Assembly: GCA_003164305.1 (NCBI GenBank)
Contig: PLSZ01000274.1
Location: forward strand, 2,154-12,161
Source: Acetobacteraceae bacterium
GTDB taxonomy: Bacteria > Pseudomonadota > Alphaproteobacteria > Acetobacterales > Acetobacteraceae
DNA length: 10,008 bases
Reading direction: 5' to 3'
The position numbers and the translations under genes were made by a program. Shown piece after piece: positions 3,992 to 7,387 of this stretch (position 1 is its first letter; each line of letters begins with the position of its first letter). Below the pieces are notes generated by a model. It had not been told where the DNA came from. It did not search any database and was given only the letters and a program-made list of their open reading frames with translations.

Positions 3992-4777
3992 ATGGAACAC
4001 GGGACATACGAACACATCGCGGTATCTGAGTCGGGCCATATCGCCACGATCGAAGTGCGGCGCGGACCGAATAATTTCATCGACACCGACATGGTCGCGG
4101 AAATCGCCGACGCGCTGGATATTTACGACAAGACGCCCGAGGCGCGCGCGATCGTTCTGTGCGCGGAAGGGAAGCATTTTTGCGCGGGCGCCGATTTCGG
4201 CAGCCGCGGCCCCGATGGCGTGATGCGGACGGCGAAACGCGGGCGGCATCTCTACAAGGAAGCGCAACGGTTGTGGAAGACCGGCAAACCGATCGTCGCC
4301 GCCGTGCATGGCGCCGCGGTGGGCGCGGGCGTCGGGCTCGCGGTGATGGCCGATTTCCGGGTGACCTGCCCCGAAGCCCGATTTGCCACCAACTTCACCC
4401 GGTTGGGCTTTCATCCGGGGTTCGGGCTGACCGCTTCGTTGCCTCGGCTGATCGGTGAGCAGCAGGCGGCCATGATGATGTATACCGGCCGCCGCCTGAC
4501 CGGGGAGGAAGCGCTGGCGATCGGGCTGGCGGATTACTGCGTGGCCCAGGACCAGGTGCGCGCGAAAGCGGTCGAAGTGGCGACGGAAATCGCTCAGTCG
4601 GCGCCGCTGGCGATCATCGCGACGCGGGAAACGTTGCGCCGCGGCCTCGCCGAAGCGGTGGCGCGGGCGACCGAGCGCGAATACGAAGAACAGGACTGGC
4701 TGCGCAACACGGCGGACTTCAAGGAAGGTACCAAGGCGATGGGCGAGCGGCGGTTGCCTAACTTTCACGCGCGGTAG
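3992..4777 (+). CDS. Crotonase (enoyl-CoA hydratase/isomerase) superfamily protein without the canonical glutamates
   Basis: The protein is 261 residues, the normal size for a single-domain crotonase acting on acyl-CoA thioesters in the cytosol. HFCAGADF (62-69) is the first oxyanion-hole strand with the CoA-binding loop. AAVHGAAVGAGVGLAVMADFRV (103-124) is the second. FATNFTRLGFHPGFGLT (131-147) follows, then LPRLIG (150-155). Aligned by eye with mitochondrial enoyl-CoA hydratase, the two catalytic glutamates (Glu144 and Glu164) correspond to Gly115 and Phe135. The substrate-activating fold is therefore intact while the usual water-handling acids are gone. An isomerase, lyase, hydrolase or other crotonase reaction is as likely as hydration. 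A GAGGA at 3981-3985, 6 bases before the ATG, supports the start. It is divergent from the hydrolase gene and convergent with the glycosyltransferase unit. Superfamily membership is certain; the reaction is unknown. Confidence 0.9.
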   Translation: MEHGTYEHIAVSESGHIATIEVRRGPNNFIDTDMVAEIADALDIYDKTPEARAIVLCAEGKHFCAGADFGSRGPDGVMRTAKRGRHLYKEAQRLWKTGKPIVAAVHGAAVGAGVGLAVMADFRVTCPEARFATNFTRLGFHPGFGLTASLPRLIGEQQAAMMMYTGRRLTGEEALAIGLADYCVAQDQVRAKAVEVATEIAQSAPLAIIATRETLRRGLAEAVARATEREYEEQDWLRNTADFKEGTKAMGERRLPNFHAR

Positions 4778-4877
4778 GGCCGTTACGGTACCTTCAGCAA
4801 CGGAATGCGTCGTGGCGAGCGTGAGCTACCCGTGACGGATCAGCAACGAGTGTGCGGTGAGCGATGGCCGGGTCAAG

Positions 4878-5006
4878 CCCCATATGCATCAAGTTAAGCG
4901 CCGCGAGAGGAAAATGCCCCTTTTCCCGTCATCCTCGGGCTCGACCCGAGGATGACGTTTGGGGGAAGGTTTTCCCTTCGCCAGCCTTATCTTGATGCGT
5001 ATGGGG
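4878..5006. mobile_element. MITE-like 129-base insertion with 16-base terminal inverted repeats
   Basis: The ends are CCCCATATGCATCAAG (4878-4893) and CTTGATGCGTATGGGG (4991-5006), inverted copies with one mismatch. TCAAG (4873-4877) and TCAGG (5007-5011) flank the element and look like an imperfect 5-base target duplication. There is no open reading frame of note inside, so any movement would need a transposase supplied from elsewhere. The interior holds a perfect 13-base-stem palindrome at the exact centre and partly complementary flanks (TTTTCC and TCGC segments pair in register). This reading as a non-autonomous element is inference. No transposase gene is in the window to match the ends. 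Confidence 0.5.
4927..4957. repeat. Perfect REP-like palindrome; possible bidirectional transcription end
   Basis: CGTCATCCTCGGG (4927-4939) and its exact reverse complement (4945-4957) enclose a CTCGA loop, giving a 13-base perfect stem. It lies between the convergent crotonase gene (ends 4777) and glycosyltransferase unit (ends 5007), where a terminator for both would be useful. Only three T follow the stem on the plus strand and none on the minus strand, so it is not a standard intrinsic terminator. It could stabilise mRNA 3' ends. The sequence belongs to the same family as the units at 11-147. Confidence 0.75.
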
Positions 5007-6146
5007 TCAGGCCCGGCCATGACGAAAAGATAATGAAGTGTCACGACTCGCGGTCACCCCCCCGGATAGTCCCAGCGTATCGATCTGATCAACTAACGAC
5101 TTGGCCATCTCCCGCCAGCCGGACGCCGTGTCCGTCATCGTAACGGGCGTCTCGCGCGGTGGCCGGTCCAGCACGCGGCGCAATCCGGAGGTCAAGCTGG
5201 CGGCGTCCGGCTCGCACAGGATCGCCATCGGCTCGTCGCGCAACTGTTCCGCCAGGCCACCGACATTCGTCGCGATCACGTATCGGTGCGCGGCCAGCGC
5301 CACGGCGGCGACGCCGCTTTGACTGGCTTCGCGATAGGGCAGCACCACGGCGTCGGCCCAACTGAACAGCGAGCCGACCTCGGTTTCCGGCACCCAGCGG
5401 TTCTCCACGATCACGCCGGGCAGCGCCCGCAACGCCGCCAGTTCCCGGCTCTCCGGGCCCGAGCCGACGACACGCACGGTCAGTCCCGGCCGCGGACCCA
5501 GTCGGATGAGGGTTTCGGCGAGCAGGCCGAGACCTTTGTAAGGCAGCAGGCGGCCGAATGACAGCAGGCGGAACGTTCCGGCCTCGGACTCACGGGGCGC
5601 GAAGCTATAACGCATCGGCGGGTGTGTCAGCCGGATCAGCTTCCGGCCCGGCGTTCCGGCGAGTTTCTGGGCCAACAATCGATCGCCGACATGGGCGGTC
5701 AGGGCGGCGACGGCGTTGGCCCGGCCGCACAGCCGGCGTTGCAGCCACATCTGCAACGGGAAACCGTCGCCCGGATGCGCGTCGGCATCGTGCACCAGCA
5801 CGACGAAGGGGATCCGCGACCGCCGCAGCGCCGCCGCCATCAACAGATCCAACGGACCCGGTTGTGCGCAAATCGCGATATCCGGACGCAGCGCGGCGAC
5901 CCTCCGGGCCAACGCCGCGATGGCGAAGGGAGCGGTCGCCAGCCGCCACAGAAACCCGGCCACGCTCGCATAGGTATCGACGGCGAGGTCGCAATGGATC
6001 GCCGGAGAATCCCGGAGAATCTCGGCGCCACGGGCCAGCGATAGCGAGACTTCGGTATCAGGCAGGTCGGCGAGGCCCTCGGCCAGATGCACCGCGAAAC
6101 GGGGCGCGCCGCCGAATCGGCCCCATTGCCAGACCAGAACTCTCAT
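5007..6146 (-). CDS. Glycosyltransferase family 4-like, last gene of the polysaccharide unit
   Basis: This 379-residue GT-B glycosyltransferase is predicted to transfer a sugar from a nucleotide donor to a growing glycan at the cytosolic face of the membrane. The N-terminal acceptor half (1-180) begins with MRVLVWQWGRFGGAPRF and contains VVLVHDADAHPGDGFP (115-130). The donor half has LLSFGRLLPYKG (194-205), VRVVGSG (224-230), ADAVVLPYREASQSG (264-278) and ATNVGGLAEQL (292-302). Glu273 is kept, but the second Glu of the usual EX7E pair is missing, as in the YRxAxQSGV subgroup I recall. The ATG overlaps the upstream gene's TGA (ATGA at 6143-6146), implying translational coupling. The last four residues and stop (HGRA-stop) are encoded within a REP-like palindrome arm. 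The uninterrupted palindrome would have given the same ending. Acceptor and sugar cannot be told from sequence. Confidence 0.88.
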   Translation of the reverse strand: MRVLVWQWGRFGGAPRFAVHLAEGLADLPDTEVSLSLARGAEILRDSPAIHCDLAVDTYASVAGFLWRLATAPFAIAALARRVAALRPDIAICAQPGPLDLLMAAALRRSRIPFVVLVHDADAHPGDGFPLQMWLQRRLCGRANAVAALTAHVGDRLLAQKLAGTPGRKLIRLTHPPMRYSFAPRESEAGTFRLLSFGRLLPYKGLGLLAETLIRLGPRPGLTVRVVGSGPESRELAALRALPGVIVENRWVPETEVGSLFSWADAVVLPYREASQSGVAAVALAAHRYVIATNVGGLAEQLRDEPMAILCEPDAASLTSGLRRVLDRPPRETPVTMTDTASGWREMAKSLVDQIDTLGLSGGVTASRDTSLSFRHGRA

Positions 6147-7387
6147 CGCGGCAGGTCCGGTCCCGTTGGCAAGCCCAGACTTCGGACGGCGTCGGCGAGG
6201 GGGGAGATGCCCAATCGTTCGGTGACCAGCGCTTTCCCTCGCGCGCCCATCGCGGCGCGGGCTTCGGCGTCGTCGGCCAGGTGGCGGAGGTGCGCCACGG
6301 CGTCGGCCACATCCGGATCAGCCCAGTACGAGTCGCGGTAGACCTGGCGCGCGTCCTCGACCGGGACAAGGCGATAACCGACGGTCGCGGCGCTGTCCGC
6401 GTCCATGAACCCCATGTTGCCGGACCATCCCGTGGCGATCACGGGTTTGCCCAGAAGCATGGCTTCGGCGAGGACCAGGCCGAAGCCCTCGGCGCGGTGC
6501 AGCGACAGCACGATGTCGGCGACGGCGGTCAGCGCGTGGACCTCGGCGATGGGATACGATCTGGTATCGATCCGAATATTGGGCGCCCCGCCGGCGGCCT
6601 GAGCGATGCGGGCGAAGTCGGCCGGAAAGTGATCCGGGTTGCCGATCTTCAGCACCAGGATGCGATCCGCGCGATCCCCGAACGCGGCCCGGAACGCGGC
6701 GATCGCGGCCAGCGGGTTCTTCCGCTCGAACGACGACGCCAGGTTCATCGACACCAGGACGACGATCGCGTTCTCCGGCAATCCGAACGCGGCGCGGTCG
6801 CGGGTGACTGGCGCGGGAGGCGCGACCGCCAGAGGGAACGGCACCACCCGGACCCGGCCCGGCAGGAACTTCTCCATGGCGGTCGCGGTGAACGGCGAGG
6901 GGACCCAGACCTCGTGCACGAAGCGGGCGCCGGCGCGCCAGTCCGGCGGCACATCGGACAGTTCCCAGTTCCAGAATCCGATCACGCGGCGGCCGCGCGA
7001 CAGACTCCGCGGCAGGCGCAGCAACGCCAACGGCAACAAAGGCGCGTTGACATGGATGACCAGCGGCGCGGCGGCCGGCGGAGAGGCGCCCAGGATCGGC
7101 GGCGTTCCGCTGGCGCCGGCGGGCAGCAAGGGACTGACATCGACCGGCCAGTTCGCCACGCCCAGGGCGTCGAGCCCGAGCCGAAACAGCCGCGCGCCTT
7201 CGCCGAGGCCTGAATACCGGGACAACTCCCCGGCCACCGCGATGCCATGCGCGGCGGGTGGGGGCGAGCGGTCGATGCGGGGGGCGAGCAGCGCCGCGGC
7301 CTCGGTCCCGGCGCGCCGACGCCCGTTCGCGGGCAGCAGACGCCACAGACGGTGCAGCAAAGACGGCTGAAACGCCGCGGAGGTCAT
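6143..7387 (-). CDS. Glycosyltransferase family 4
   Basis: The product is a 414-residue retaining GT-B glycosyltransferase of the GT4 type. The N-terminal half has HGIAVAGELSRYSGLGEGAR (47-66), a glycine-rich loop typical of this group, and GFWNWELSDVPPDW (137-150). The donor half has SFERKNPLAAIAAF (219-232), ADIVLSLHRAEGFG (290-303) and a clear EX7E motif (Glu300 and Glu308 in AEGFGLVLAEAM), followed by GKPVIATGWSGNMGFM. A GAGGA about 9 bases before the ATG supports the start. Its stop overlaps the next gene's start by 4 bases. Upstream, a 118-base gap separates it from the 503-residue glycosyltransferase. That gap ends in a tiny ORF (7384-7419) whose stop overlaps this ATG. It probably works with its neighbours to add successive sugars of one polysaccharide. 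Donor identity is not visible; GDP-D-rhamnose or GDP-mannose is suggested only by the upstream rmd. Confidence 0.9.
   Translation of the reverse strand: MTSAAFQPSLLHRLWRLLPANGRRRAGTEAAALLAPRIDRSPPPAAHGIAVAGELSRYSGLGEGARLFRLGLDALGVANWPVDVSPLLPAGASGTPPILGASPPAAAPLVIHVNAPLLPLALLRLPRSLSRGRRVIGFWNWELSDVPPDWRAGARFVHEVWVPSPFTATAMEKFLPGRVRVVPFPLAVAPPAPVTRDRAAFGLPENAIVVLVSMNLASSFERKNPLAAIAAFRAAFGDRADRILVLKIGNPDHFPADFARIAQAAGGAPNIRIDTRSYPIAEVHALTAVADIVLSLHRAEGFGLVLAEAMLLGKPVIATGWSGNMGFMDADSAATVGYRLVPVEDARQVYRDSYWADPDVADAVAHLRHLADDAEARAAMGARGKALVTERLGISPLADAVRSLGLPTGPDLPR

Follow-up and report, generated by a model that had tools for sequence, protein, structure and literature searches.

The DNA analysed here, referred to as the window, is a 10,008-nucleotide stretch of an Acetobacteraceae contig. 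Between two convergent genes, one for an enoyl-CoA hydratase (plus strand, ending at 4777) and one for a glycosyltransferase (minus strand), lies a segment in which three palindromic stems share the centre 4942, with coordinates exactly as claimed in an earlier note on this sequence: an outer stem of 4864-4872 with 5012-5020 (9/9 paired), a middle stem of 4878-4893 with 4991-5006 (15/16) and an inner stem of 4927-4939 with 4945-4957 (13/13). Of the 78 position pairs around this centre, 54 are complementary, the top value among the 19,696 centres in the window, where the runner-up reaches 49; the maximum in dinucleotide shuffles (n = 40) is 43. As single-stranded DNA the 157 nt fold with -58 kcal/mol (z = -10.5), and none of 200 shuffles is equally good. 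An Rfam search and a tRNA search each gave 0 matches. REP-like repeats are frequent in the window (positions 12-155), which would favor a chance overlay of unrelated palindromes at a GC-rich intergenic spot, but this reading is contradicted by the rank of the centre and its excess over all 40 shuffles, and is refuted by the recurrence of the same build in relatives. We give it practically no weight.

The features of the locus are as follows.

4864..4880, minus strand: left part of the target REP, composed of the arm ATGGCC and the left duplication copy (ATGGCC-GGGTCAAGCCC)
4870..4880: left copy of the 11-bp target site duplication, GGGTCAAGCCC, of the form GGG-N5-CCC, 10/11 identical to 5004-5014
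4881..5003: MITE of 123 bp without an ORF of its own, built as end (18), spacer (28), REP (31), spacer (28), end (18)
4881..4898, plus strand: left terminal inverted repeat CATATGCATCAAGTTAAG, 8/8 conserved positions of CAT-------AA--TAA---
4927..4957: central CGTC-type REP, CGTC-ATCCTCGGG-CTCGA-CCCGAGGAT-GACG, 46 bp from each element end
4937..4947: putative landing core without an insertion, GGGCTCGACCC, GGG-N5-CCC, centred on the element (offset 0)
4986..5003, minus strand: right terminal inverted repeat, minus-strand reading CATACGCATCAAGATAAG, 8/8 conserved positions
5004..5014: right copy of the target duplication, GGGTCAGGCCC
5004..5024, minus strand: right part of the target REP with the CGTC tag, minus-strand reading CGTCATGGCCGGGCCTGACCC
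5007..6146, minus strand: glycosyltransferase gene, whose stop codon (5007-5009) falls within the right duplication and whose final codons, RHGRA, are formed by REP sequence

The full layout is ATGGCC - GGGTCAAGCCC - [ CATATGCATCAAGTTAAG - 28 bp - CGTCATCCTCGGGCTCGACCCGAGGATGACG - 28 bp - CTTATCTTGATGCGTATG ] - GGGTCAGGCCC - GGCCATGACG, where the single brackets enclose the element. Its boundaries were fixed from the 5'-CAT with which IS231-subgroup ends begin (Table 1 in the excerpted text of PMC2266710) and from the duplication. The two ends are compatible at 17/18 positions, T/C and T/A differences aside, and no ORF of at least 80 aa is confined to the element, which thus has the usual properties of a MITE (70-300 bp, inverted ends, no coding sequence, a target duplication). 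The flanking duplication had been described earlier as the five bases TCAAG/TCAGG; it is real, and those bases are its core, but its length is 11 bp with 10/11 identical. Likewise, the 16-base middle stem is present, but three duplicated bases on each side had wrongly been counted as part of the element. The target in the window reads GGGTCARGCCC, and the outer REP, on the minus strand, reads CGTC-ATGGCCGGG-CYTGA-CCCGGCCAT. Outer and inner REPs both have a GGG-N5-CCC core at the axis, and both follow the design of the alphaproteobacterial CGTC REPs as defined in the excerpts of PMC3733652, namely a CGTC tag, a stem of 8-9 bp starting with AT and a loop of 4-5 bases.

The RHGRA C-terminus of the glycosyltransferase is found in the window's own protein (P0001) and in P0003 (82% identical) among the 12 homologues fetched and is absent from the other 10, including P0002 (91% identical). 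Because P0003 ends like the window gene and P0002 does not, REPs supply gene ends here. Other repeats occur elsewhere in the window. A cluster of REP-like palindromes at 12-155 (12-44 with 93-125, plus 134-155) resembles the element's inner REP; its parts 12-37 and 99-120 resemble CGTC REPs, and positions 4-37 are 88% identical to 4919-4952, including the outer flank of the inner REP. A different repeat family is represented by a 49-nt inverted repeat (2763-2811 with 2874-2922, 62 nt apart, 90% complementary) that is rich in CCACGGAG/GGCCACGGAG-like units and lies between an acyl-CoA synthetase gene and the next gene.

Members of the IS231 subgroup of the IS4 family have ends of the form CAT-------AA--TAA---, insert with target specificity and duplicate 10-12 bp (excerpted text of PMC2266710). 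Based on agreement at 8/8 end positions at both ends and the 11-bp duplication, the middle layer is best classified as a putative non-autonomous IS4-family (IS231 subgroup) MITE. The end sequence is also compatible with subgroup ISH8 (CAT-----------T-----; CAT plus T15). The target consensus of IS231A is reportedly GGG(N)5CCC.

Scanning genome contigs with CCCATAYGCATCAAGNTAAG returned at least 119 stretches from many phyla, and the matches listed include Desulfobacterales, Methylococcales, Jettenia, Chloroflexota, Armatimonadetes and others. Among the matches listed are short elements as well as four full-length IS of 1.4-1.5 kb (L076, L127, L140 and L153), whose proteins match PF01609 and score above the cut-off of NF033592 (IS4 family transposase); L127 is flanked by an 11/11 duplication, GGGCTTGACCC. 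In the phyla among the matches listed, where CC at -2,-1 was preselected by the search pattern, GGG occupies -11 to -9 at 35 of 143 ends, compared with 297 of 20,000 random places, and the complete GGG-N5-CCC is found at 14 of 143 ends, compared with 1 of 20,000 in the control. A direct duplication of at least 9/11 accompanies 17 of the 55 candidate pairs among the matches listed, many of the 55 not being true pairs.

Several individual cases from these searches deserve description. At L047, 2.2 kb (5116-7292) lie between the same ends with an 11/11 duplication and contain a 421-aa ORF resembling another transposase type, perhaps one IS within another. L153 (4603-6118) is an intact IS4-type IS on a contig labelled Simkania. 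It occupies the loop of a long palindrome that looks perfect (GATGTAATAGCCCA...TGGGCTATTACATC), and its loops too are inverted. The 38 viral matches to the 16-base end recur in phage-like contexts and have no TAAG extension; they were taken as chance. Plasmid searches returned the REP part alone, or nothing.

The copies set beside the window element below come from relatives of the host rather than from the element's family in the host genome itself. Relatives were reached through the glycosyltransferase beside the element, for which the homologues P0046 and P0096 (Acetobacteraceae) show 66% identity and the best genome matches, in the order of G299, reach 55-62%; the acyl-CoA synthetase gene as a route gave 48% identity at most. 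In the class of G293, 0 of 385 genomes contain the exact end. In the family of G1119, 5 of 249 genomes have an end at no more than one mismatch; the three such ends of G973 sit in REPs, and the five matches in the other four genomes were judged by eye to be chance. CATAHGCATCARSWTAAG, with up to one mismatch, was then found in 17 of 59 relatives of G973, and 132 of the 141 matches fall in eight genomes (G1280, 42; G973, 34; G1281, 16; G1266, 13; G1275, 8; G1268, 8; G1279, 7; G1278, 4), whereas the reversed pattern, used as a control, matched three times across the 59. The eight genomes that carry the same build are probably Acetobacteraceae. The 132 matches are covered by 116 stretches that were fetched.

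In these relatives the ends mostly read CATANGCATCAGGATAAG, which keeps 7/8 consensus positions and has AG for AA at 11-12. A REP half adjoins 131 of 175 ends (each with up to two mismatches), compared with 1515 of 20,000 random 30-mers from the same loci, and a GG/CC core is present at 126 of 175 ends, compared with 214 of 20,000 in the control; 44 of the 175 ends are negative in both REP tests. For duplications, we considered 43 pairs, each formed with the best-matching partner sharing at least 7/11 bases, direct or inverted, a rule that favors duplication identity; nearest-partner pairing alone yields 47 pairs and 86 single ends. Most of the 43 come from three genomes (G1280, 20; G973, 11; G1281, 8). 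With the window included, a direct duplication is perfect (11/11) in 11 of 43 pairs and reaches at least 9/11 in 26 of 43. With L275, the two pairs of L281, L318 and L343 set aside as doubtful, 37 of the 42 non-window pairs remain; in these the loops of the duplications have a mean identity of 3.68/5, compared with 1.93 in 5000 permutations (highest, 2.81), and are identical in 19 of 37 pairs, compared with at most 10 in the permutations.

The loops match better in direct orientation in 34 of 43 pairs and better inverted in nine (L252, L256, L263, L267, L281, L283, L288, L305 and L349). Inverted loops are not expected of plain transposition; some of these pairs, in nested loci, may be wrong pairings. 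For ISRm22, recombination between copies has been discussed as a source of imperfect repeats (excerpted text of PMC1525189). At least two loci, L273 and L346, have perfect 11-bp duplications at non-REP sites, which shows that a REP is not required as a target. The earlier note had proposed searching relatives for further copies with similar ends, for duplicated flanks and for empty palindrome sites. The first two were found and an orthologous empty site was not: the L346 flank matched 1 of 59 genomes, its own, and for L273 one flank occurs in 43 of 59 genomes and the other only at its own locus among 12 compared, with synteny lost.

Within the elements, a REP-like CGTC tag (up to one mismatch) is present in 43 of 43 pairs, window included, and in both orientations in 37. 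At 129 of the 175 ends the tag falls into one of two distance classes, being 41-50 nt from the end at 95 of them and 60-72 nt from it at 34; the window REP lies 46 nt from both ends, copies of 127 bp have 47 and 49, and asymmetrical arms also occur (45/64, 48/62). The position of the REP can be understood from these classes: two arms of the same class give a centred REP and arms of unlike classes an off-centre one, such as 48/62. The exact centring in the window is accounted for, in part, by fixed REP-end distances and equal arms. Copies from different loci align end to end through the REP or REPs, with mean column identities of 93% (n = 3), 85% (n = 9) and 86% (n = 6), and therefore the REP moves with the element.

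The first origin of such a symmetrical unit is a separate question. It may have come from a REP that entered a palindromic MITE, or from template switching at a REP. According to the former, the central REP entered the axis of a palindromic MITE by its own REP/RAYT-like insertion, so that REPs are the active party and the landing site of the MITE is a by-product. The excerpts of PMC3733652 describe REP dimers in longer palindromes (A. variabilis, H. neapolitanus) and, for T. roseum, small palindromes that contain GTAG-23 REPs, and the exact 46/46 centring of the window REP also fits. However, different-locus copies have REP and arms in common over their full length, showing that the REP now moves with the element, and the arms are sometimes asymmetrical (45/64, 48/62). 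In addition, the same excerpts associate no dedicated transposase with CGTC repeats, proposing instead that the enzyme became extinct or that various transposases mobilized them. As an account of these elements REP self-insertion is unlikely; it may be the origin of the first such MITE.

Template switching at a palindrome during replication slippage, by which an IS end and a REP were copied twice inversely into a foldback, would account for the equal 46-bp arms and for the complementarity of 4864-4914 with 4970-5020 (51 nt at 76%), and the 9 of 43 inverted loops could result from template switching or from recombination between inverted repeats. This explanation concerns the origin only, as the direct 11-bp duplications at different targets (perfect in 11 of 43 pairs) require transposition, and it is at odds with the 127-bp copies, whose two spacers are quite unlike in sequence. 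We regard it as a possibility of somewhat less than one chance in three, rather better placed than REP self-insertion.

The carried REP also has the sequence of a target. Of the 43 lineage pairs, 29 have a target-like core no more than 30 bp from the element centre, compared with 5.9 expected from shuffles. Among 11 elements of other phyla, hand-picked from the 55 candidate pairs among the matches listed, 2 have such a core (offsets 12.5 and 25), compared with 0.3 expected. In this sample the central core is therefore a feature of the lineage, being much commoner there and not strictly confined to it. Nested ends also occur: 18 end pairs in the same orientation are stacked 58-85 bp apart at 16 loci, with a REP half between them. 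These loci comprise 15 of the 116 fetched stretches and L365, and three of them (L343, L344 and L357) rest on weak ends with up to three mismatches. Because same-orientation ends are stacked with a REP half between them, the carried REP serves as a landing site, and based on these nested copies in relatives the core GGGCTCGACCC at 4937..4947 would be one in the window.

At L365 a 1308-bp IS (1270-2577) has such ends and contains pieces of an IS4-type transposase. Its insertion site is the REP at the middle of an outer MITE with ends at 1206 and 2642. The resulting three layers (1206-2642) consist of a REP, the outer MITE with its own central REP, and a full-length IS inside the latter. The transposase is frame-broken and scores 82 bits against the NF033592 cut-off of 115; its larger piece contains YREK, a motif that is also present in the intact L153 transposase and whose Y is absent from L127, L140 and L076. 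Intact transposases above the NF033592 cut-off occur in three of the eight genomes but are not flanked by these ends; L361, L362, L363, L369, L376, L382 and L386 were considered as partners and rejected because such ends do not bound them, L369 having one weak end. In G1262 a 408-aa protein related to the L365 enzyme is intact, likewise without these ends, and transposase remnants lie close to one matching end (L410/L412). No RAYT is among the Pfam matches of 8 window ORFs. Judged from end and protein sequences, the transposase is most likely a DDE enzyme of the IS4 (IS231-like) type, not a RAYT.

Taken together, the recurrent ends, the REP halves at 131 of 175 ends, the 11-bp duplications and the REPs inside support the proposal of the earlier note that a short non-autonomous element sits at a REP axis and carries a second REP in its middle. 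We conclude with considerable confidence that 4881-5003 is a non-autonomous IS4-family (IS231-like) element in the core of a CGTC REP, carrying a REP of the same class as cargo and as a fresh target. In the mechanism we infer, a DDE transposase of IS4 type acting in trans would excise the element by its two 18-bp ends, in cut-and-paste fashion, and join it across an 11-bp stagger to GGG-N5-CCC, the core of a CGTC-tagged REP between convergent genes, whereby 11 bp would be duplicated. The element would come to lie at the REP axis because each REP of this class has its GGG-N5-CCC (or CGG-N5-CCG) core there. The same-class REP at the element centre travels as cargo and presents a fresh target, and later copies can land inside earlier ones, building nested concentric arrays. 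The carried REP would then be important for spread and not a passive passenger.

The note had also suggested that targeting of hairpin loops explains the exact concentricity. REPs are indeed the chief target, but hairpin extrusion is not needed, since the core targeted reads GGG-N5-CCC or CGG-N5-CCG, and L273 and L346 are at non-REP sites. Taken as a rival reading, the idea is that insertion is guided by the shape of the REP, as a hairpin or cruciform, and not by sequence. The 131 of 175 ends at REPs are compatible with such guidance, and target choice by IS231A is said to be tied to DNA bending as well as to sequence. Nevertheless, L273 and L346 have perfect 11-bp duplications where there is no longer palindrome, and GGG-N5-CCC is preferred in phyla that mostly lack a visible REP-like flank. 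We consider guidance by shape instead of sequence quite improbable, more so even than REP self-insertion; target shape may act as a helper to sequence choice.

More tentatively, and at rather less than even probability, we suggest that CGTC REPs spread here as the central cargo of IS4-type MITEs and that bearing the element's own target at its axis is a self-renewing landing-pad strategy. If this is true, each insertion swaps one landing site for a new one, so that targets are never exhausted, genes are spared and nested arrays grow. The IS4-type MITE would be a concrete carrier for the multiplication of CGTC REPs, with the REP as both core and target. It would also show, in bacteria, how a mobile element can come supplied with a safe landing site, limiting gene damage and keeping the target supply renewable. 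Concentric palindromes that otherwise resemble exotic hairpins would also be explained.

MIC231 elements are non-autonomous cassettes of IS231. The window element differs from IS231 and MIC231 in its hosts, its length of 123 bp, the lack of a cargo gene, its mostly REP targets and the presence of its own target at the element centre. With the IS231 subgroup, as described in the excerpted text of PMC2266710, it shares 5'-CAT ends, AA and TAA at the same spacing, duplications in the 10-12 bp range and target specificity. ISRm22 of Sinorhizobium meliloti, an IS4-family element assigned to subgroup IS4Sa (PMC2266710, as excerpted), is likewise inserted at the axis of REP palindromes, in 10/10 cases in the paper's table (PMC1525189); unlike the present element, it is a full-length IS with 6-bp duplications, and the excerpted text of PMC1525189 makes no mention of a carried REP or of nesting. 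Similarity to REPINs and RAYT-mobilized REPs lies in being short, palindromic, non-autonomous and high-copy. Those systems depend on a HuH/Y1 transposase, whereas a DDE enzyme is indicated here and the ends and duplication are of IS4 type. The IS110-family elements ISPpu9, ISPpu10, ISRm19 and IS621, according to excerpts, also insert at fixed REP positions, but they belong to another enzyme class, and the present element has long inverted ends and an 11-bp duplication. In contrast to the CGTC REPs described in the excerpts of PMC3733652, the REPs here are carried within, and targeted by, an IS4-type MITE. The open-licence literature, as far as its accessible excerpts extend, yielded no report of a MITE that carries REPs, nests in them or bears its own target. 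Thus, IS4-family insertion at an alphaproteobacterial REP axis (ISRm22, PMC1525189) and REPs in longer palindromes (PMC3733652) are already known from these excerpts, and what appears to be new is that a MITE bears, at its own axis, a landing site for itself.
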